A stretch of DNA of 52,088 bases, taken from Bacteroidia bacterium (GTDB lineage Bacteria; Bacteroidota; Bacteroidia; NS11-12g; UBA9320). Made by a program: the position numbers and the translations under genes. Below, one piece after another: positions 19,493 through 32,529 of the stretch; within the stretch, counting starts at the first letter, position 1; each line of letters opens with the position of its first letter. Below the pieces are notes generated by a model. It was not told where the DNA came from and searched no databases. It saw nothing but the letters and a program-made list of their open reading frames with translations. The stretch covers positions 1-52,088 of the forward strand of contig JADLGN010000013.1 in assembly GCA_020849295.1 (NCBI GenBank). The letters run 5' to 3'.

Positions 19493-22400
19493 TTGAAAAA
19501 CTTCAAAAAAATATACAAGTGGATTTTTATAATCGTTGCATCTTTTGTTTTTCTTATAATTGCTGCAATAGCTCTACTAAGTTTAAAATCTGTTCAAAAT
19601 TATATTGTACAAAAAGCTACAGTTTATTTATCTAATGAACTAAAAACAACAGTTAAGATAAAATCAATTGATTTTAAGATTTTAAACAGAATACAGTTAA
19701 ACGGACTTTATATTGAAGATTTGCATAATGATACTTTGGGCTATTTTGACAAACTGGATATAGGTTTTAATTATAAAATTCTATTTAGTAAAAAACTTAA
19801 TCTTGCCAGTGTAAATAAAGTAAAAATAAAAAATTCAGTAATTAAATTTATAAAATATAACAAACAAAGAGATTTTAATTATCAATTTCTGGTTGATTAT
19901 TTTACAGCGCCTAATACTAATAAAACAGGCGGAAAAGATTTTAGTTTAATAATTAAAAAAGTAAGTTTAGAGAATATAAAATTTATTTTGATTCAGGGCG
20001 ATAAAAGCCCTCCTGACGGAAGAGCCTTTGATGAAAACGATATGGTATTTAATAATATCTATAGCGATATTAATTTATTTAAACTAATAGGTGATTCAAT
20101 AGTTATGAATATTGATAAATTCATTTTTAAAGAGAAATCGGGGCTTACATTTACAGAATTTTCTTCTAAAACTACCATTTCTTCAAGTGTTATGGAATTT
20201 AACGAATTGCACATGAAAACTCCCGAATCTGAAATTAAAAATTATGTAAAACTTTCTTACAATGGCTGGAATTCGTTTTCAGATTTTGAAAAAAATGTTC
20301 AATTGAAATTTGATTTTGATAAAAGTGAAATTTCTACACGTGATATTTCATATTTTAGTAACTATTTAAAAAACTATAATTTTAAAACATCTATTTCGGG
20401 CACTGTTAAAGGCACTTTAGCTTCAATTAATTCTAAAAATATCAAATTAAAAGTTGGAGAACTAAACACGATAGAAGGTAGTTTTGAAATGAAAAATCTT
20501 ACAAATACCGACAATCTTTCATATAACCTTTATATAAGTAAAATGACATTGAACCCTTCAAATATTCAGCAACTGATTAAATACAAATTTCCTGATGAAT
20601 TGTTGAGAATTGGTTCGATAAACTATTTAGGAACAATAAAAGGCACTTTGCAAAATATCAATTCAATAGGACTGTTTGAAACTACAGTTGGAAATATAAG
20701 AACAGATATCGGATTTGTTTTTGAATCTGGTAAAGTACCTGAATATAAAGGAGAAATTGATGTTTTTGCACTAAATACAGGTAAGGTATTAAATACCTCT
20801 AAGACAGGTTTTCTTACTATGTTTAGCAAAATTGAAGGAAAAGGGTTTACAATAAAAGATGTAAACACTAAACTCATAAGTAATATTGATAATTTTGAAT
20901 ATAATGGTTACAAGTATGTCAATGCAACTTTAGATGGCATATTTGAGAAAAAGAAATTTACAGGAAACTTTAAAATTGATGACCCTAATGCAAATTTTAA
21001 TCTTACTGGAAATTTTGATTTTAATGAAAAAGAACCAACCGGCAGTTTTTTAGCTACATCAGATGGAATAAACTTAAAAACTCTAGGTTATAGTGATATA
21101 AACATTAGCAAACTTAGCGATGTGAATATTGAGTTTGAAGGGGATGACATTGATAATATATCAGTTCATGCTATACTAAGTAAGATAGAACTTGAAAAAT
21201 TTGATGAGATTTTTTCTATAGAAAATATAAAATTAGATGCATTTGGAGTATATAGCAATCGCTCAATACAACTAAGCAGTGATTTGGGCAATATTTCGCT
21301 GTCGGGTAATTTTAAGCTTTCTGAAATAAATAAAATAAGTAGTGTTTTTCTGTATAATCTTTTCCCTGAATTTTATACTAAAGAAAAATTCGATAATCTC
21401 CATGTTGATATTCGCTTTGATACTGATATTAATAATTCGAGATTTTTAACACCATTGTTTTTCCCTGATATTAAGTTTTCAGGATTTACTTGTACGGGAG
21501 TTTACAATTCGCAAAATCAAAATCTGGATTTAGTGGCAATGGCAGACAACTTTAGCTATAAAAATTATTCTTTTAATGAAATAAATATTCAAAGCCAAAA
21601 AAAACCTGATAAAAAACTTGCACTTTTAACAAGCGTTGAAAATGTAAATTATAATGATAGTCTATTTACAAGAAACATTGAATTAGATGCTGATATTGGT
21701 TTGGAAGACATTGAGTTTAGCTTGAAAGTATCTGACACAACTGACAATATCAGTTTAAATACTGCCGGTCAAATTTCTCTAATCAAAGATACTGTCGGTG
21801 TGAAATTTATAAATTCATCAATTTACATTTATAAGAATCAATGGAAAATAAGTGATGAAAATTATTTGACATATAATAAAAACTCAATCAGTATAGATAG
21901 TTTTAAAATTACACATGGATTTCAATATTTATTAGCAAATGGAAAAATAATCAATAATGAATTTAATGGACTTGATTTGGATATAAGTAAATTTAGCCTT
22001 GATGAGCTAAATCCTTTATTAAGTAAGAAAAACATAAGTTTAAAAGGAATAGCCAACAGCAAGATTTCATTAAATGGTAATATTTCTAAACCTGTAATCA
22101 AATCAGAAATTTCAATCAAGGATTTATTTTATAATAATGATTCAGTAGGAGACGTTGAACTTACAACACTAAACAGTGAAAGTAAATATAAAATGGATGT
22201 TTTTGGTAAAATTAAAAATGGATTTGTTAATAATCTTACCATTACCGGAAACATAGATGTAACGCCCGAAAAGGAAAGATTAAATCTTTTTGTTTCTTTA
22301 AATAATACGAGCATAAAACCCTTTGAAACATTTACAAAAGGACTATTTTCAAACATCAAAGGAATTATTGATACCGCTGTTTTAAAAATAAACAGTGACT

Positions 22401-23887
22401 TTAAAAAAACAGAAACCTATGGTGAAATTATGGTAAATGATGCAAGCATGTTTATGGATTATCTTGGAGTACCACTTATAGTAAATAAGGCTAAAATAAA
22501 AATCAACAACAATGAAATAAATCTTGGGGAGTTTGAAGTTGCCGATAAATACGGCTCTAAAGCAATTGCCGGTGGTAAAATTTTTCATAAGAATTTTGAA
22601 AAAATGAGATATGCAATTTTTATGAAAGATCTTAAAAACTTCAATTGTATGAATTTAACAGAAGAACAAGGCAAACTTTTTTTTGGAAATGCCTTTGTTG
22701 ACGGAAATATGGTTTTGAGTGGTACAATGAATGACTTATACCTTAATATAAACGCCAAAAGCAGAGCAAAAACTGTAATTTCATTGCCACTTGTAACAAC
22801 AACAGAAACTACCGGACCTGATTTTATTAAAATAGTTGACTTAAGAGGTACAGATAATTACACAAAAACAAAGAGCCTTACAGGTATTACAATGGATTTT
22901 AATTTTAATATTACAGACGATGCAGAAGTGAGATTGATTTTTGATTCGAAATTTGATGATGTAATAAAAGCTACAGGCGAAGGAAGTATTAAAATGGAGC
23001 TAACTACTTATGGCGATTTTTATATATATGGAAGCTATATAATAGACAAAGGAAGTTATAATTTTACAGCTTTAAACAATCTGGTAAATAAAAATTTAAA
23101 AGTAAAAAAAGGTGGAAAAATAATATGGAACGGCAATCCTTACGAAGCCGTTGTAGATTTGATGGCTACAACTACTGTAAGTGCTGACCCTTCTGTAATA
23201 ATTCCAAACATAAATCCTGCTGGTATTAATAATACTGTAGGTATAAATTGCAATATTTCACTAAAAGATAATTTGTTTCATCCGCAAATAAATTTAGGAA
23301 TTGATATATCTGACGAAAACCAATCTACATTATTTTCAAATGCAGATTTAACAAATGCAATAAATTTGATAAAAACAGATCAAGAAGAAATAAATAAACA
23401 ATTTATTAATTTACTTGTTTTTAACTCGTTTGCTCCAACAAACCCGGGCATTTCAACTGCAACCACATCAAATCTATACTCATCAGTACAAAATAGCATT
23501 GGAGCATTTATGACTACACAAGTTAATAATTGGCTTAGACAGATAGACCCTAATTGGGAGTTAGGTATAGACTGGAGCAATAGTGGAAATACCGAAACTC
23601 AAAAACAAATTATGGTATCACTAAAGCGAAAGTTATTTAATGAGAGAATAGAAGTAGGAGGAGTTTACGGACAGGCAGGAATTTCATCTTATGATGTAAA
23701 TTTAAGTTATAAAATTAAACAAGATGGACGTTTAAGATTAAGAGGTTTTAACCGCAGAGCTACTGATCCGCTTAGCGGAAACAATACTTATATAAATTCT
23801 TCAGGTGTAGGTTTGTACTACAGAAAAGAGCTTGATTATCTTTTTCCTAAATTCAGGAAAAAAATTTATGACAAAAAACATAACTAA
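19493..23887 (+). CDS. tamB: TamB/DUF490-type outer-membrane biogenesis protein
   Basis: This 1464-residue protein has one N-terminal transmembrane helix (about 12-31) and a long series of beta-strands. The start resembles AsmA-like proteins (VQNYIVQKATVYLSNELKTTVKIKSIDF), and the final 400 residues form the DUF490/TamB C-terminal domain, ending in a strand-rich region with YDVNLSYKIKQDGRLRLRGF. Such proteins bridge the inner and outer membranes and are thought to carry phospholipids or aid outer-membrane protein insertion. The TTG start is supported by the promoter core 11 nt upstream. A TamA partner is not in the window. Confidence 0.92.
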   Translation: MKNFKKIYKWIFIIVASFVFLIIAAIALLSLKSVQNYIVQKATVYLSNELKTTVKIKSIDFKILNRIQLNGLYIEDLHNDTLGYFDKLDIGFNYKILFSKKLNLASVNKVKIKNSVIKFIKYNKQRDFNYQFLVDYFTAPNTNKTGGKDFSLIIKKVSLENIKFILIQGDKSPPDGRAFDENDMVFNNIYSDINLFKLIGDSIVMNIDKFIFKEKSGLTFTEFSSKTTISSSVMEFNELHMKTPESEIKNYVKLSYNGWNSFSDFEKNVQLKFDFDKSEISTRDISYFSNYLKNYNFKTSISGTVKGTLASINSKNIKLKVGELNTIEGSFEMKNLTNTDNLSYNLYISKMTLNPSNIQQLIKYKFPDELLRIGSINYLGTIKGTLQNINSIGLFETTVGNIRTDIGFVFESGKVPEYKGEIDVFALNTGKVLNTSKTGFLTMFSKIEGKGFTIKDVNTKLISNIDNFEYNGYKYVNATLDGIFEKKKFTGNFKIDDPNANFNLTGNFDFNEKEPTGSFLATSDGINLKTLGYSDINISKLSDVNIEFEGDDIDNISVHAILSKIELEKFDEIFSIENIKLDAFGVYSNRSIQLSSDLGNISLSGNFKLSEINKISSVFLYNLFPEFYTKEKFDNLHVDIRFDTDINNSRFLTPLFFPDIKFSGFTCTGVYNSQNQNLDLVAMADNFSYKNYSFNEINIQSQKKPDKKLALLTSVENVNYNDSLFTRNIELDADIGLEDIEFSLKVSDTTDNISLNTAGQISLIKDTVGVKFINSSIYIYKNQWKISDENYLTYNKNSISIDSFKITHGFQYLLANGKIINNEFNGLDLDISKFSLDELNPLLSKKNISLKGIANSKISLNGNISKPVIKSEISIKDLFYNNDSVGDVELTTLNSESKYKMDVFGKIKNGFVNNLTITGNIDVTPEKERLNLFVSLNNTSIKPFETFTKGLFSNIKGIIDTAVLKINSDFKKTETYGEIMVNDASMFMDYLGVPLIVNKAKIKINNNEINLGEFEVADKYGSKAIAGGKIFHKNFEKMRYAIFMKDLKNFNCMNLTEEQGKLFFGNAFVDGNMVLSGTMNDLYLNINAKSRAKTVISLPLVTTTETTGPDFIKIVDLRGTDNYTKTKSLTGITMDFNFNITDDAEVRLIFDSKFDDVIKATGEGSIKMELTTYGDFYIYGSYIIDKGSYNFTALNNLVNKNLKVKKGGKIIWNGNPYEAVVDLMATTTVSADPSVIIPNINPAGINNTVGINCNISLKDNLFHPQINLGIDISDENQSTLFSNADLTNAINLIKTDQEEINKQFINLLVFNSFAPTNPGISTATTSNLYSSVQNSIGAFMTTQVNNWLRQIDPNWELGIDWSNSGNTETQKQIMVSLKRKLFNERIEVGGVYGQAGISSYDVNLSYKIKQDGRLRLRGFNRRATDPLSGNNTYINSSGVGLYYRKELDYLFPKFRKKIYDKKHN

Positions 23888-25852: not shown

Positions 25853-27334
25853 ATGTTACCAGTTTATACTTCTGAAAAAATAAAAGAATGGGATAAATAT
25901 ACCATAGAAAACGAGCCAATTAGTTCTGTTGACTTAATGGAACGTGCAGCAAACGCTTGTACCGAATGGATAATAAATCACATTAGTCCCGAATACAAGA
26001 TAATAATTATTTGCGGAGACGGCAATAATGGGGGTGATGGACTTGCAATAGGCAGATTGTTGCTTCACTATAAATACATAATTGAAATTTTAATAAGTAA
26101 TTCAGAGAAACGCTCTTCTGATAATTACACTAATTTAAAAAGAATTGAAAACTATAATCCATCATTAATAAAGGTAATTAATGAAGAAAGTTTTTTTAAG
26201 TTTAACCAAAATAGTGTTATCATTGACTGTATATTTGGTGTGGGATTTAAACCTCCTGTTGATAATTTTTGGAAAGGAGTAATAAATTCAATAAATGATA
26301 CAGGTTGTAAAATTATAAGTATTGATTTGCCTTCGGGGCTACCTGCCGAACCTGAAAATGAAAATGAGCAAAACATTGTTAAAGCATGGCATACACTTAC
26401 ATTTCAAGTTCCAAAAATTAGTTTATTAATGCCCGGTTGGGGAGATTTTACTGAAAATTTTACAGTTATTAATATAAACCTCAATAGCGATTTTATTCTT
26501 CAAAATCCAACTAAACTAAATTATTTCACTATTGAAGATGCCAAAAAAATTTTTATTAGAAGAAATAGATTTTCGCATAAAGGCAATTATGGTCATGCAC
26601 TTTTAATAGCAGGAAACGAAGGCAAATGCGGTGCAGCTATTATGAGTTCGAGAGCTTGCATTAAAAGCGGAGCAGGACTTGTGTCGTGTTTTTCAAACAA
26701 CTGTTGTGATGCAAGCATTGTAAATTCAAGTCCTGAGGTAATGACTGAGAAAGAAATTTTTGATTTTGATAAATATTCTGCAATAGGTTTAGGTTGTGGA
26801 ATAGGTACAGATAAAAATGCCGTTGAACTTGTAGAAAAGATAATAAAATCAGCAAAAATTCCTTTGGTAATAGATGCAGATGCAATAAAAATAGTTTTTG
26901 AAAACAACTTTATAAAACATACATCAAATGTAATAATTACACCACATCCTAAAGAGTTTGACAATATAGCAGGACAATTTGAAAATTCTTATGAAAGATT
27001 TAAAAAAGCATCGCAATTGGCAATAGAAATGAAAATAATTATAGTACTAAAAGGAGCTAATACTGCAATATTTCTTCCCGAAGGCTCTGTTTATTTTAAT
27101 AGCACCGGAAATCCAGGAATGGCTACAGCCGGTAGCGGAGATGTACTTACAGGTGTAATAACATCATTTGTTTCGCAAGGGTATTCATTAACAAATGCTG
27201 CCATGTTGGGGGTATTTATTCATGGTATGTCAGGAGATATGGCAGCAGGTTACAATTCTATAACAGGGCTAAGTGCTACAGATATTATAGATTTTCTTAA
27301 CCCTGTTTTTAAAGAATTGGAAAATTATTATTAA
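25853..27334 (+). CDS. nnrD: Bifunctional NAD(P)HX epimerase/ADP-dependent dehydratase
   Basis: This 493-residue metabolite-repair enzyme restores hydrated NADH and NADPH. The N-terminal YjeF/NnrE epimerase half (about 1-210) contains ICGDGNNGGDGLAIGR and SIDLPSGLPAE. The C-terminal ribokinase-like NnrD half (about 230-490) contains HKGNYGHALLIAGNEG, IITPHPKEF, VVLKG-like strands, and the phosphate loop NPGMATAGSGDVLTGVI. Both halves are full length. It has its own promoter core and converges on the YceI gene with only 2 nt between stop codons. Confidence 0.96.
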   Translation: MLPVYTSEKIKEWDKYTIENEPISSVDLMERAANACTEWIINHISPEYKIIIICGDGNNGGDGLAIGRLLLHYKYIIEILISNSEKRSSDNYTNLKRIENYNPSLIKVINEESFFKFNQNSVIIDCIFGVGFKPPVDNFWKGVINSINDTGCKIISIDLPSGLPAEPENENEQNIVKAWHTLTFQVPKISLLMPGWGDFTENFTVININLNSDFILQNPTKLNYFTIEDAKKIFIRRNRFSHKGNYGHALLIAGNEGKCGAAIMSSRACIKSGAGLVSCFSNNCCDASIVNSSPEVMTEKEIFDFDKYSAIGLGCGIGTDKNAVELVEKIIKSAKIPLVIDADAIKIVFENNFIKHTSNVIITPHPKEFDNIAGQFENSYERFKKASQLAIEMKIIIVLKGANTAIFLPEGSVYFNSTGNPGMATAGSGDVLTGVITSFVSQGYSLTNAAMLGVFIHGMSGDMAAGYNSITGLSATDIIDFLNPVFKELENYY

Positions 27335-27336
27335 AA

Positions 27337-27891
27337 TTAATTTTCAGATTTAATCAGTTCTATTTCTGCAAATATTTTTACTTCATCACTTACAAGAACT
27401 CCACCTGCTTCTAAACCGGCATTCCATGTAAGATTCCATTCACTTCGGTTAATTTTTCCGTTTAAGTTAAATCCGGCTCTTTCGTTTCCCCAAGGATCTT
27501 TACCGGTTCCACCAAATTCAACATTCATTATTACCGGTTTGCTTATTTCTTTAATTGTTAAAATACCATGCAAACGATAATTGTTTTCAGCAATATATTC
27601 TAATTTGTTTGACTCAAATTTTAAAAAAGGAAAATTTTCTGAATCAAAAAAATCTGCTGATTTTAAATGTCCGTCTCTTTGATCATTATTACTGTTGATT
27701 GATGCAGTTTCTGCTAAAAACTCTATATTAGCAGTTGTAAAATCTAAACCTTCACTTGCTACTTTAATACTGAATTTTTCAAAGTAACCTGATACGTTAG
27801 AAATCATCATGTGTTTTACTTTAAAACCTATTTCGCTGTGAGTGGTATCAAGATTCCACGTAATTTTTTTTGATTGAGCTGATGTTGTCAT
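27337..27891 (-). CDS. YceI family lipid-binding protein
   Basis: This 184-residue YceI-type lipocalin-like barrel probably binds an isoprenoid or other amphiphile. Typical segments are WNLDTTHSEIGFKVKHMMISNVSGYF, DQRDGHLKSADFFDSENFP, GILTIKEISKPV and NRSEWNLTW. I choose the ATG at 27891; the longer TTG version from 27909 overlaps a near-consensus promoter core. No signal peptide is visible, so unlike many YceI proteins this one may be cytoplasmic. It is preceded by about 100 nt without other genes. Confidence 0.88.
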   Translation of the reverse strand: MTTSAQSKKITWNLDTTHSEIGFKVKHMMISNVSGYFEKFSIKVASEGLDFTTANIEFLAETASINSNNDQRDGHLKSADFFDSENFPFLKFESNKLEYIAENNYRLHGILTIKEISKPVIMNVEFGGTGKDPWGNERAGFNLNGKINRSEWNLTWNAGLEAGGVLVSDEVKIFAEIELIKSEN

Positions 27892-27989
27892 AGTTTTTTT
27901 TAAATACAAAATTGAACTGTTTAGCTCATCAAAGCCTTGATAGAAGTTAAGAAATTGTATTGACTTATGTTAAGGTTAAAAAAAAACTA

Positions 27990-29567
27990 TTAATTAGGTG
28001 TTTTTAAAAATTTCTGATACTCGTCAATAATTGCATTGTAAAGCATTTCGCTTACATATCTTGCACCTTTGGTACTGAAATGTGTAAAATCTTTAGCAGC
28101 AAGATTATTTTCAACCCAACTACTCATACTGTTTTTTCCGCCCATAGCCGCATATAAATCCCAAAATGCACATCCGTTTTCAAAAGCTGCATTTTTCATC
28201 GCATCTCTTATTAGAGTAATATTTGGATACGATTCGTATCCTTCGGCAGTTTTCATACTCATATCAGACGGACCAATAACGAGAATTGAGGCAAATGGTG
28301 CAGCAGATTTTAAAACTGAAAGTTGCTTTGAAAAAGCGTTTTCATACCAGTTATAGTTATTTTTAGGATCAGGTACCAAATTTATTCCGTATTGTAGAAT
28401 TATTAATTTTACATTCATTCGTAAAAATAATTCATTAAGAAGTTTTCTGTTTATATTGTCAAAACCTAAGGCAGAGCTACCTCGCATAGGAAAATTGTCA
28501 ACTGCTACTCCAGAACTGCCATCGAGTGCAACTCCGTAAAAATAAGGACTTTCTCCTGTAAAATTTAATGTTGCACCTTTGTTATTCTCACCTATTTCCC
28601 ATGATTTACATTCAACATAAGATTTTGGCAGTATTTCATTTTTATTAAATCCATTTTTTGATTTCAAATTAAACTTGAATGAATTATCAGCCGAGTATAG
28701 TAAAGTAATTTTATTGTATTGTCTAACTCTCGGAAAACTTGAAATCGCATTAGAAATGTCAAACCAGGCATCAATTTTATCGGAATTTGTACTTCTGATG
28801 GTATCGTATAATACTACAGCTGAATCTGTAATATATTCAAAAGTTCCATCAGGATTTTCTATTTTTTTGCTTGCGTATTTTTTAATTATTTTTAATTCAG
28901 TATTGACTTGAGTGTTTGTTAAAGTTTCTGTTGTATATCTGTATGATGAGGCTCCGATTCCATAAAAACCGTTTTTAATTTTAGCAGTTTTTCCATAAAT
29001 GGCATATTTTACCCAATTTTTACTTTCTGATTGTTTTACTGATATTCTTGAGTTTGAAATATCATAAGGTAAAACAATGCCAGGTCCCCAACCTCCAAAT
29101 CGCAACTGCAAACGATTTCTTAAATAATCGCTAATTCTATCGCCTTCAAGTTGCGAATCGCCATAATGAATTATTCTTATAAGAGAGTTTAAGGATTCAA
29201 GTTCTGCTAAAGATTTAAAGAAAGCAGTTAATGCACTTTTATTGTTTGCCGGATATTGAATTTTCTTTTCTGCAGATACTATTATTTCTTCAAATTTGTT
29301 TTTGCCAAGTTTCTTTGTATCTAATGAAACAAGGCTTGTATCAACAGTTTTAATATCTGCAATTACTTTTTTTGCATCAACTACTACTTTTTCTTCTTTA
29401 TCAAAAATTTTGTTTAATGATACAAATTTTAATGTGTAATTGTTAAGCAGTTTAATATTACCTGTAGGGAAAATAAAAATTATTAATGCAAGTAAAACAT
29501 TAAGCAATATTAATGCTCCGAATATTTTTGCAGGCGATATTTGAGCTTTCCCCTTTTCAATTTTCAT
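27990..29567 (-). CDS. Membrane-anchored SGNH/GDSL-type hydrolase
   Basis: This 525-residue protein has one N-terminal transmembrane anchor (about 14-34) and an extracytoplasmic SGNH hydrolase domain. Visible residues are the nucleophile S138 in IIHYGDSQLEGDR, a glycine-rich FGGWGPGIVLP, an Asn in LILQYGINLVPDP, and the catalytic D493/H496 in KDFTHFSTKGA. SGNH enzymes of this type often remove or add acetyl groups on peptidoglycan or polysaccharides. It is 7 nt downstream of a LysM pseudo-transglycosylase, which makes peptidoglycan the likely substrate. No MBOAT acetyltransferase gene is adjacent. Confidence 0.82.
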   Translation of the reverse strand: MKIEKGKAQISPAKIFGALILLNVLLALIIFIFPTGNIKLLNNYTLKFVSLNKIFDKEEKVVVDAKKVIADIKTVDTSLVSLDTKKLGKNKFEEIIVSAEKKIQYPANNKSALTAFFKSLAELESLNSLIRIIHYGDSQLEGDRISDYLRNRLQLRFGGWGPGIVLPYDISNSRISVKQSESKNWVKYAIYGKTAKIKNGFYGIGASSYRYTTETLTNTQVNTELKIIKKYASKKIENPDGTFEYITDSAVVLYDTIRSTNSDKIDAWFDISNAISSFPRVRQYNKITLLYSADNSFKFNLKSKNGFNKNEILPKSYVECKSWEIGENNKGATLNFTGESPYFYGVALDGSSGVAVDNFPMRGSSALGFDNINRKLLNELFLRMNVKLIILQYGINLVPDPKNNYNWYENAFSKQLSVLKSAAPFASILVIGPSDMSMKTAEGYESYPNITLIRDAMKNAAFENGCAFWDLYAAMGGKNSMSSWVENNLAAKDFTHFSTKGARYVSEMLYNAIIDEYQKFLKTPN

Positions 29568-29574
29568 TTAACAG

Positions 29575-30864
29575 TTACCTTTTCTTTTTTTTCTTTTTTT
29601 TGCTATTTGAAGTTTTGGACTTTATAACATATATTTTTAGCTTTTGCCCGGGAAAAATATTGTTTTTTTTAAGGTTATTCCACTTTTTAATATCGGTTAT
29701 TGTACAGTGATATTTTTTTGCAATTTTTGTTAATCCATCACCTTTTTTTACTTTATAGATAATAAGAGTTTTGCCCTTTGTGTTTTCAGATTCTGTTTTT
29801 GGTTTAGGTTTTTCTATTTCATCGTTTTCTGTTGTTTCATTATTGTTTCCATCTTCTATATTTTGATAATTTGAGCCATCGTCAATTGCTGAAGTGTCAT
29901 TTGCAGTTTTAGGTGTTTTAGGTCTGTTGTCTGGCATTGTTACAATTAGCGGTTCTTTGTCTTTGAAAATATAAAGTGAATCTTCTTTCTCTTTAAATAT
30001 TTTAATTTTTGACGAGGGGATATAAATGAAATATTTTTTAATACTATATGGTACTATTCCTTTTTTATATATCGGATTGTATTCTTTTAAAAAATTTTTA
30101 TCAATTCCTGTAATTTTATTTATTTGGTCAAACGTAGTCCAGTTTTTAATATAAACAGTATCTGTTTTTTCGGGCTTATATGTATGTACTTGTATTTTGT
30201 GATTTCTGAAATGATGAGTAATATAAATTCCAGCAATAAACTTAGGGACTGCTACTTGAGCCAATGGTGAAAGATAATTATGAATTTTCCAATACTCAAG
30301 TTTTCCACCACTTTGCCTAATGGCTTTATTCACTTCTATCTCTGAAGAATAAAATGCTGCAATGGCAAGATTCCAATCTTCATAAATTTTATATAAATCT
30401 TCAAAATAAAGAATAGCTGCTTCGGTTGATTTTTCAATATCTCTTCTTTCGTCAATATATGAATTAATCTTTAAACCATAAGTTTTAGCTACATAATATT
30501 TCATTTGCCAAACTCCCGAACCGCCTTCTTCCGATATTTTTTGATTATTCATACCGCTTAATGCAAATGAAATATACTGTAGTTCAATTGGCAATTTGCT
30601 GTTTCTAAGTTGTTTTTCTATGTCGGGCAAATAATAAAATGCTTTGCTAAGCTGAGTGCTTATCTCTGTATTATTGTAATCAGTATATTCATTTATATAC
30701 AACTGCACATACTGGTTATATTCTATTGGTATTGAACTTTTGATTTTATCAATTCGTTTTGCAATTGTGTCAAAATAACTTTTGCTAACATTTGATTTTG
30801 CTAAAGCCGAATTTGGCAAAAGCAATGAAAAATTGATAGTGATTAATAAAAATAATTTTTTCAA
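29575..30864 (-). CDS. LysM protein with transglycosylase-like domain lacking the catalytic Glu
   Basis: This 429-residue exported protein (signal peptide to about ALA 22) has an MltD-like SLT domain at about 85-200 and a LysM domain at about 368-413 (YKVKKGDGLTKIAKKYH). The SLT fold is recognisable from GGSGVWQMKYYVAKTYGLKIN, IDERRDIEKSTEAA and WNLAIAAFYSS. However, the catalytic glutamate expected in a VAESALNP-type motif is L102 in SFALSGMNN, and the AAYNAG motif is changed to AAFYSS. It is thus probably a peptidoglycan-binding scaffold, not an active enzyme. The start is TTG at 30864; a low-complexity Lys tail ends the protein. Confidence 0.85.
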   Translation of the reverse strand: MKKLFLLITINFSLLLPNSALAKSNVSKSYFDTIAKRIDKIKSSIPIEYNQYVQLYINEYTDYNNTEISTQLSKAFYYLPDIEKQLRNSKLPIELQYISFALSGMNNQKISEEGGSGVWQMKYYVAKTYGLKINSYIDERRDIEKSTEAAILYFEDLYKIYEDWNLAIAAFYSSEIEVNKAIRQSGGKLEYWKIHNYLSPLAQVAVPKFIAGIYITHHFRNHKIQVHTYKPEKTDTVYIKNWTTFDQINKITGIDKNFLKEYNPIYKKGIVPYSIKKYFIYIPSSKIKIFKEKEDSLYIFKDKEPLIVTMPDNRPKTPKTANDTSAIDDGSNYQNIEDGNNNETTENDEIEKPKPKTESENTKGKTLIIYKVKKGDGLTKIAKKYHCTITDIKKWNNLKKNNIFPGQKLKIYVIKSKTSNSKKKKKKKR

Positions 30865-30876
30865 TTTACTGTCTTA

Positions 30877-32307
30877 TTAAATGATTTCTTCGCTGAGGTA
30901 TTTTGCAAAGTTAATAAGATGTTTTTCATTAAATAAGTCTGACATTAACTGAATACCAATAGGCATTCCACTATAATCTACACCTGACGGAATACTAATA
31001 GCCGGATTGCCGGCAAGTGGTGCTTGTACTGTAAATATATCAGCAAGATACATAGCAATTGGGTCGTTTATTTTTCCTCCTATTTCAAATGCTGTTGTAG
31101 GGGTAGTTGGATTAATTACAAAGTCATATTTTTTAAATAGTTCTTTTGTTTTATTCTGAATTATACGCCTTACTTTTTGTGCCTTTGTATAATATGCGTC
31201 ATAATAATCAGAGCTAAGTACAAAAGTTCCAGACATTATTCTTCTTTTTACCTCATCACCAAAACCTTCACTTCTTGATTTTTTAAATGTTGATTCGAGG
31301 TCAATACTGTTTTTACTGCGATATCCATAAAGCAAACCTGAATATCTGCTAAGATTTGAAGATGCCTCGGCAGTAGTTAATACATAATAACATGGTACCA
31401 AATAATCAAGTAAGTCAAAATTTACCGGCTCTACAATATGTCCTGCTTTTTTAAGATTTTCAATAATTTGGTAAGTTTTGTTTTTTATTTCTTCTTGAAC
31501 TCCATCGTTATTAACATAATTTTCAAGATAAGCAATTTTCAACTTTTTATCCTGATTTTGAAATTCAGTATAATTTTCAACAGGTTTTTCTGAGCAAGTA
31601 GCATCATATTCATCGTTGCCAGAAATTATTTCCATTAATAATGCCATATCTTCAATGGTAGAAGTTATTGGTCCTATTTGGTCAAATGAAGAAGCATAAG
31701 ACAAAAGACCATATCTGCTTATTCTGCCATAGGTTGGTTTTATTCCGAAATTTCCAGTAAATGCCGCAGGTTGTCTTACTGACCCTCCGGTATCAGAGCC
31801 AAGAGTTGCTGTACATAAATTTGCTTGTACTGCAACTGCTGCTCCTCCTGAAGAACCCCCTGAAACTTTATTATTATCAAAGGCATTTAACACAGTGCCA
31901 TAAGCAGAATTTTCATTTGATGCTCCCATTGCAAACTCATCACAATTTAGTCTGCCAATAATTATAGCATCTTCTGCTAAAAGTTTTTCTACAACTGTAG
32001 CCGAATACTGCGATACAAATCCTTCAAGAATTTTGCTTGAGGCAGAAACTCTATGATTTTTATAACATATATTGTCTTTTAATCCGACAAACATGCCGGC
32101 AAGTTTCCCTGTTTTTTTGCCAGATTGTATTTTTGTATCGAGTAATTGAGCTTGTTGCTTTATCTCATCACTATAAACTTCAAGAAAAGCATTAAGATGT
32201 TTGTTTTTATCTATGTTTGATAGATAAAATTCTGCCAGAGCAAAACACGTAATCTCGCCTGATTTTACCTTTTGAGAAAAATTGTTAAATCCCTTTTGGT
32301 AATTCAA
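30877..32307 (-). CDS. gatA: Aspartyl/glutamyl-tRNA amidotransferase subunit A
   Basis: This 476-residue amidase-signature enzyme releases ammonia from glutamine for Glu-tRNA(Gln) or Asp-tRNA(Asn) amidation in the GatCAB complex. The Ser-cisSer-Lys triad is visible as K77 in GLKDNI, S153 in SGGSSGGAAV and S176 in SDTGGSVRQPAAF. Length and motif order fit GatA rather than a general amidase. The start is TTG at 32307, directly after the tatA stop. gatB and gatC are not in the window, so the complex is encoded at separate sites. Confidence 0.95.
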   Translation of the reverse strand: MNYQKGFNNFSQKVKSGEITCFALAEFYLSNIDKNKHLNAFLEVYSDEIKQQAQLLDTKIQSGKKTGKLAGMFVGLKDNICYKNHRVSASSKILEGFVSQYSATVVEKLLAEDAIIIGRLNCDEFAMGASNENSAYGTVLNAFDNNKVSGGSSGGAAVAVQANLCTATLGSDTGGSVRQPAAFTGNFGIKPTYGRISRYGLLSYASSFDQIGPITSTIEDMALLMEIISGNDEYDATCSEKPVENYTEFQNQDKKLKIAYLENYVNNDGVQEEIKNKTYQIIENLKKAGHIVEPVNFDLLDYLVPCYYVLTTAEASSNLSRYSGLLYGYRSKNSIDLESTFKKSRSEGFGDEVKRRIMSGTFVLSSDYYDAYYTKAQKVRRIIQNKTKELFKKYDFVINPTTPTTAFEIGGKINDPIAMYLADIFTVQAPLAGNPAISIPSGVDYSGMPIGIQLMSDLFNEKHLINFAKYLSEEII

Positions 32308-32310
32308 TTT

Positions 32311-32529
32311 TTAAGAATTTTCTTCATTATTTTTTTTGGGTTCTTCGTTCATGCCTTCACGAATTTTATCTTTTACATCGTTTTTGGCATTGTTAAACTC
32401 ACGAATTCCCGATCCTAAACCTTTCATTAGTTCAGGAATTTTTTTACCTCCAAAAATTAATAAAACTACAAGCAGTATCAATAGCCACTCAGAACCGCCC
32501 GGCATTCCAAATAATATAATTGAGTTCAT
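32311..32529 (-). CDS. tatA: Sec-independent translocase protein TatA/E
   Basis: This 72-residue protein has one transmembrane helix (about 14-28), the [20 protein letters not shown] amphipathic helix typical of TatA, and a charged tail. It forms the pore component of the twin-arginine translocon with TatC, which is not nearby. It is the first gene of the tatA - gatA - LysM - SGNH run, with a perfect promoter core 11 nt before the ATG. Confidence 0.94.

Follow-up and report, generated by a model that had tools for sequence, protein, structure and literature searches.

Organization of the locus

Within the window, which is the whole analysed stretch of 52,088 nucleotides, the minus strand encodes a MltD-like lytic transglycosylase (LT) without the catalytic Glu, here called pLT, and 3′ of its gene lies SGNH1, the gene of a predicted Ape1-type SGNH hydrolase. 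A second Ape1-like SGNH gene linked with MBOAT is denominated SGNH2. The 5′ neighbour gatA is a marker of the ancestral LT gene site and has no part in the function. The features are given in window positions:

30877..32307, minus strand: gatA, 5′ neighbour, 12 nt ahead of pLT (TIGR00132, 544 bits, cut-off 481)
29575..30864, minus strand: pLT, MltD-like LT without catalytic Glu, 429 aa (open reading frame, Pfam, phmmer and structure model)
30301..30606, minus strand: SLT (GH23-like) domain, residues 87-188 (Pfam PF01464, E 1.3e-12)
30559..30561, minus strand: TTA codon of Leu102, which occupies the place of the catalytic Glu (codon read and three alignments)
30526..30531, minus strand: E112 and E113 codons, an acidic pair within the loop preceding GGSG (alignment)
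30343..30360, minus strand: AAFYSS, residues 169-174, replacing AAYNxG (alignment)
29632..29757, minus strand: LysM domain, residues 370-411 (Pfam PF01476, E 1.2e-15)
27990..29567, minus strand: SGNH1, predicted Ape1-type SGNH hydrolase, 525 aa (phmmer 4k3u 2.2e-20; model Z 36.5)
29472..29534, minus strand: hydrophobic N-terminal helix of the SGNH1 protein, residues 12-32, likely membrane anchor (helix in the model; hydrophobicity from sequence)
29151..29162, minus strand: SGNH block I, GDSQ, residues 136-139 with catalytic Ser138 (invariant in 27/27)
28380..28388, minus strand: SGNH block III, G394-I395-N396 (G394 and N396 invariant in 27/27)
28080..28091, minus strand: SGNH block V, D493-F-T-H496 (D493 and H496 invariant in 27/27)

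The pLT gene starts with TTG 12 nt past gatA and encodes an N-terminal signal-like segment, the SLT domain, a linker and the C-terminal LysM domain. The ATG of SGNH1 at 29567 follows 7 nt past its stop codon, and so both the LysM domain and the close downstream SGNH gene that an earlier note on this DNA had described are confirmed. A scan of positions 27200-32500 gave 35 promoter-like sites where 24.7 were expected, and a single terminator-like stem that lies within gatA. Elsewhere in the window (19493-23887) a 1464-aa open reading frame has no Pfam match at E 0.001.

A MltD fold without its catalytic residues

The SLT domain of pLT scores 47.7 bits with PF01464 (cut-off 21.3), and the closest solved protein is MltD from P. 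aeruginosa (9.4e-23, phmmer). The nearest NCBIfam model, the MltD equivalog, gives 133 bits, far under its cut-off of 508. The structure predicted by AlphaFold2 (mean pLDDT 83.1, with more than 90 across most of the SLT part) finds its best structural match in P. aeruginosa MltD 8rhe with Z 23.5 and rmsd 4.1 over 250 residues, i.e. a MltD fold, and goose-type lysozymes match it at Z 10.6-11.6. The SLT fold and the motifs GGSGVWQM, DERRD and AAFYSS are all found as the earlier note had read them.

The same holds for its central claim, Leu102 at the place of the catalytic Glu. In the phmmer alignment and also in a profile alignment L102 falls on the catalytic Glu of P. aeruginosa MltD (IES motif), and it does so again in a MAFFT alignment with the intact paralogue of the same genome and further relatives. 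Where MltD enzymes end their active-site helix with Glu, pLT has a leucine, and the AYN motif reads AFY (Phe171, Tyr172). Since these defining Glu and AYN residues were looked for and are missing, pLT would fall outside the GH23/MltD enzyme class.

The Ape1-like neighbour

The best solved match of the SGNH1 protein by phmmer is 4k3u from N. meningitidis (2.2e-20), followed by 8gkd/8gld from C. jejuni (about 1e-8); Foldseek titles label all of them as peptidoglycan O-acetylesterases. Its AlphaFold2 model (mean pLDDT 83.1) superimposes with residues 101-520 on NmApe1 4k3u at Z 36.5 and rmsd 2.9 for 342 of 350 residues, with 19-20% identity to Ape1 proteins, and on the C. jejuni Ape1 entries at Z 30.5-30.8. 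After these come general SGNH hydrolases with Z 14.7 and below, and PatB (7tjb, 7trr, 7tlv, 8tlb) lies with Z 13.7-13.9 within their range. The modelled fold includes the inserted carbohydrate-binding region of Ape1, a binding module that is assigned to family 35 in PMC12148441. The catalytic residues S138, N396, D493 and H496 are invariant in 27/27 relatives, and none of the NCBIfam models scores above its cut-off on this protein. What had been noted simply as an SGNH hydrolase can, according to its model, be named more closely as Ape1-type.

The patA (MBOAT)/patB cluster, which is the usual context of Ape1 and no strict requirement, is absent from this locus; MBOAT and another SGNH gene are found together on contig C19 of the same genome instead. 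That SGNH1 encodes an esterase and not a transferase is a probable assignment, deduced from the fold and from the distance between this gene and MBOAT.

Loss of the catalytic glutamate among relatives

For comparison 179 candidate frames were collected. After removal of seven too short ones and merging of identical domains 137 were left, and exclusion of L005, an unrelated SLT/LysM protein, resulted in 136 distinct LT domains; they stem from the matches listed, and the total of relatives may be larger. Among them Glu at site 102 is present in 92/136 and absent from 44/136. All 44 rows of the pLT clade are without Glu and none of the 92 canonical rows is, a contrast that chance does not explain. 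From the sister family of the window's own family 40 stretches were fetched and 39 rows obtained (L246 yielded none), and all 39 are again Glu-less, with Asn in 24, Thr in 7, Ser in 6 and Ile and Ala in one each. One genome of this sister family (G083) possesses two Glu-less LT genes (L245 and L030), the one adjacent to gatA with Ala and the other one with Tyr.

The earlier note had proposed to look whether Leu is conserved among homologues with the SGNH neighbour. This is true for the window's genus, in which all seven rows have Leu, and does not extend to the whole family, where 20/26 rows have it and the remaining six show V, V, I, W, A and M but never Glu. Its argument that Glu codons are two changes away from TTA and a recent error is unlikely agrees well with the 83 Glu-less sequences now known. 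Moreover, a recent point error at site 102 can be rejected, since Glu is missing in these 83 sequences from two families and a few others.

The remaining active site is near-uniform in the rows with Glu (Gln120 in 92/92, Tyr171 in 92/92, Asn172 in 91/92). Among the 44 Glu-less rows Gln120 is found in 17, Tyr171 in 12 and Asn172 in 5, and in the Glu-less rows of the sister family Gln120 occurs in 0/39 and the Asn of AYN in 1/39. Conversely, an acidic residue at position 112 or 113 is present in 38/44 and, for the sister family, in 35/39 Glu-less rows but in none of the 92 rows with Glu. The loss of Glu102 coincides in this manner with a gain of acid at 112/113 as a family-wide co-change. As the genome of the window also encodes a paralogue with an intact LT domain (L002), it does not lack LT activity.

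Descent and selection

A first tree sample comprised 92 of the 136 rows after thinning of near-identical Glu rows. The maximum likelihood tree with trait columns removed was reconstructed from 88 of these 92 (L176, L178, L003 and L065 omitted) and keeps all 42 Glu-less rows together, set apart from the other rows by one branch. The support of this branch is a bootstrap of 100, a value not fully settled, with SH-aLRT 94, and the split was recovered in all 200 bootstrap trees examined. Because this single branch separates the Glu-less rows, one ancient loss of Glu would be the simplest account, although mutual attraction of the fast rows could inflate such a branch. Deep placement is unsure with the long branches L069, L049 and L074 (L176 and L178 being omitted from this tree), and a clade of the dead LTs from the window's own family, its sister family and f12 that excludes the MBOAT-linked ones has a support of only 81/76.

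The site itself appears old. In other families an intact LT gene follows directly after gatA in 9/20 stretches, and also at L103 and L120, and in the sister family the Glu-less LT adjoins gatA in 31/39 stretches. This means that the site is probably the ancestral LT site and that pLT most likely occupies the old place of an intact LT.

Selection was estimated from two comparisons. The pair of lowest dS (G004-G006, dS 0.68-1.05, the one usable pair) gave dN/dS of 0.042 for pLT, 0.067 for gatA and 0.057 for SGNH1. For the window's genome versus G001 the values are 0.068, 0.074 and 0.104, respectively, at high dS. Judged by these ratios, pLT is under purifying selection and is not decaying in the window's genus. 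At the level of sequence, then, pLT has kept its fold and its LysM domain, has lost the catalytic Glu and the AYN motif, and is preserved by selection.

Gene neighbourhood in the own family and elsewhere

In 26 of the 38 genomes of the window's own family pLT is followed by SGNH1 on one strand with site 102 readable, and Glu occurs in none of them. Two more (G027, G035) have a LT fragment beside SGNH1 with site 102 outside the stretch. Five (G016, G017, G029, G034, G037) have gatA and SGNH1 without LT between them, and the LTs of the genus to which these belong are strongly diverged. Four (G014, G030, G031, G032) do not allow a reading or break off at contig boundaries, and for G018 the matches listed include no Glu-less LT and no close SGNH1. 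In G003 (L038, contig C28, 203-568) the partial end of a second SGNH gene, 74% identical, is located 3′ of the complete gene, close to where the contig stops.

In the sister family SGNH1 is beside the Glu-less LT in 0/39 stretches, and four of its genomes with a Glu-less LT (G056, G074, G077 and G079, completeness 84-94%) have no Ape1-like SGNH match at E 0.001. Other families contribute 19 SGNH1 sites, which are mostly ordered SGNH1-SGNH2-MBOAT. Directly 5′ of SGNH1 a Glu-less LT-like gene is present in five of them (L069, L073, L074, L176, L178, all with LysM, the SLT domain of L176 being under the Pfam cut-off) and a Glu-bearing LT in one (L065); at the other 13 of the 19 no LT was found upstream. 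Among Glu-bearing LT loci in named genomes 24/64 have SGNH1 directly 3′, and the genomes with this intact LT-SGNH1 arrangement include Thermophagus, Saccharicrinis, Anaerophaga, Carboxylicivirga and Perlabentimonas. The common order there is a ParA-like gene, a ParB-like gene, a short gene, LT, SGNH1 and then SGNH2 and/or a MBOAT-like gene (ParA, ParB and MBOAT recognized by eye).

SGNH1 and LT-type genes are thus associated at two differing genomic sites. These sites suggest two origins of the SGNH link, which we do not claim from the tree because the AU test keeps a single clade of all SGNH-linked dead LTs (not rejected, p 0.354).

Some further arrangements were observed around these genes. 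The row of ParA/ParB, a short gene, intact LT and SGNH1 was seen in named Bacteroidota genomes at L104, L105, L117, L118, L128, L145 and L149, most of which continue with SGNH2 and/or a MBOAT-like gene, and a tie of chromosome partition genes with peptidoglycan O-acetylation genes is possible. The genome of the window has SGNH2 together with MBOAT on contig C19, apart from SGNH1; at this place (L167, G000:C19:83500-91500) the Ape1-like SGNH gene overlaps MBOAT, with sugar nucleotidyltransferase-like and KpsF-like genes (named by eye) as neighbours. In G120 a gene 4 nt 5′ of SGNH1 (L170:3899-5188) resembles RodA/SEDS by eye, and this identity, if true, would connect the cluster with the synthesis of peptidoglycan.

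Comparison with known systems

MltD (8rhe, 8rhf, 8rhi) is the best match of pLT in sequence and structure, and both share an SLT domain, a middle domain and LysM. In contrast with MltD, pLT lacks the catalytic Glu, has Tyr for the Asn of AYN, has gained the acidic pair 112/113 and contains one LysM by Pfam. The SGNH1 protein, a putative esterase, has in its model the fold of Ape1 (4k3u; 8gkd/8gld) and all SGNH catalytic residues. It differs from Ape1 in its greater length, its N-terminal anchor-like helix and its link with a dead LT beside gatA.

The nearest functional parallel is found in Neisseria. LtgA is a Slt70-type LT. It is an active enzyme, unlike pLT, which is of MltD type and naturally without the catalytic residue. 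Williams et al. 2020 (PMC7083599) showed for N. meningitidis that LtgA and Ape1 associate to a complex of about 100 kDa and that LtgA raises and prolongs the activity of Ape1 on 4-nitrophenyl acetate, which is no substrate of LtgA. This means that a LT can act on Ape1 without cutting. According to the same source LtgA with its active-site helix deleted leads to hyper-acetylated peptidoglycan. Two of its observations argue that LtgA is not strictly required: the legend of its Figure 7 states that removal of LtgA leaves the function of Ape1 in the cell unaffected, and the E481A strain is free of a shape defect. An operon partnership of the LtgA gene with ape1 was not noticed in PMC7083599. By analogy, a non-catalytic role of a LT towards Ape1 has a precedent in LtgA (PMC7083599), and pLT looks like a LtgA-type Ape1 partner with the cutting lost.

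A second, purely functional analogy is offered by the inactive LytM factors EnvC, NlpD and DipM, in which a dead peptidoglycan hydrolase fold controls another wall enzyme. Their M23 fold is unrelated and their partners are mainly amidases, so that homology is not claimed.

Proposed role of pLT and alternative explanations

The earlier note had suggested that pLT may guide the hydrolase to peptidoglycan instead of cutting glycan itself. The part on cutting stands insofar as the Glu-based mechanism is lost, and the lasting SGNH link (26/38 genomes of the family) is in favour of the partnership. Against it are the dead LTs of the sister family without SGNH and the genomes of the own family (5/38) without LT. 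That pLT guides the hydrolase is something we infer.

Our overall reading is that pLT binds glycan without cutting it and acts as partner of an Ape1-type esterase, and as a whole we regard this reading as evenly poised. Its parts are not equally firm. That pLT has no Glu-based LT activity is very probable; that it is functionally paired with SGNH1 is favoured only slightly; and if they are paired, action via targeting or activation is likely. In this mechanism pLT would be exported to the periplasm, where its SLT groove and LysM domain would bind glycan strands of peptidoglycan without cleavage. It would cooperate with the presumably co-transcribed, membrane-anchored SGNH1 protein, and would keep it at the wall and/or activate it. 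As a result, MurNAc O-acetyl groups would be removed where the intact LT paralogue would act. Activation or stabilisation of SGNH1 by pLT is as likely as targeting. Targeting alone is perhaps redundant since SGNH1 has its own Ape1-like carbohydrate-binding region, and because its match spans the binding module of Ape1 a separate targeting protein would not be plainly needed. An exclusive pairing of pLT with SGNH1 is weakened by the dead LTs of the sister family and by the five esterase-only genomes among the 38 of the own family.

These last observations lead to a possible though less probable account, in which pLT is a general peptidoglycan-binding lectin of SLT fold with LysM and a wall-organising role of its own, and SGNH1 joined the unit for expression without any direct cooperation. 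Glu-less LTs would then predate or outlast the SGNH link, as they are found at gatA without SGNH1 in the sister family and in some genomes without any Ape1-like SGNH, and gatA, being an unrelated housekeeping neighbour, may mark just a convenient transcription unit. However, SGNH1 is beside LT-like genes both at gatA in the own family and at SGNH2-MBOAT in other families, and also beside intact LTs, so gatA alone poorly explains the link. A different partnership, with SGNH1 as PatB-like acetyltransferase and pLT helping in acetyl placement, appears unlikely. Relatives of SGNH1 do sit in SGNH1-SGNH2-MBOAT clusters, MBOAT-SGNH pairs are described as acyltransferases in PMC12148441, and SGNH2 too matches Ape1 best, so that sequence leaves it undistinguished which of the two is a transferase. 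Yet in the window's genome MBOAT accompanies SGNH2 on another contig while SGNH1 stays apart with pLT, and the modelled SGNH1 protein superimposes on 342 residues of Ape1 but on PatB in the catalytic core alone (Z 13.7-13.9).

Whether pLT could still be an enzyme depends on the acidic pair. The catalytic acid may have moved to E112/E113, as the earlier note had considered, with a changed glycosidase or LT reaction, and the acid gained there by most Glu-less rows (38/44 and 35/39) and by no row with Glu (0/92) fits this idea. Goose-type lysozymes, which resemble the pLT model at Z 10.6-11.6, carry further acids in this hairpin loop; their essential acid, however, is the helix Glu. As the loss extends to the remainder of the active site (Gln120 retained in 17/44 and 0/39, the Asn of AYN in 5/44 and 1/39) and the gained acid switches between 112 and 113, which is unusual for a catalytic residue, we consider such a relocation unlikely. 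Decay to a pseudogene or an assembly artefact is of almost negligible probability. In g10, a genus within the window's family, LT is strongly divergent and absent from some genomes, but all 26 genomes read in the family have an open frame with the same architecture, dN/dS is about 0.04-0.07 and the 83 sequences that share the loss of Glu come from many independent genomes. Within the genus of the window the pseudogene was rejected by dN/dS and the open frames of the relatives.

Significance

Lytic transglycosylases are blocked where MurNAc is O-acetylated, until Ape1 removes the block; to our knowledge, how cells choose the site of acetyl removal is an open question. The SLT domain, LysM and the folds of MltD and Ape1 are already known. 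What may be new here is a dead LT serving an Ape1-type esterase, which was not found in open-licence print. Neither this family of dead LTs nor a partnership of its members with Ape1 in Bacteroidota came up in the open-licence literature of PubMed Central. That part of the Bacteroidota possesses a dedicated family of non-cutting LTs, which serve Ape1-type peptidoglycan O-acetylesterases as subunits that activate or place them, is a tentative proposal. If true, such proteins would be the glycan-strand counterpart of the dead LytM amidase activators and would represent the LT-Ape1 partnership of Neisseria cut down to its non-catalytic part.

In the combination of a naturally dead LT and an Ape1-type esterase the binding role of a LT stands apart from its cutting role, whereas for Neisseria this distinction had to be derived from an enzyme that still cuts. 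The combination would offer a clean two-protein system for asking whether LT folds control de-O-acetylation without wall cleavage. It also calls for caution, since annotations as “lytic transglycosylase” in these bacteria may hide proteins without such activity.
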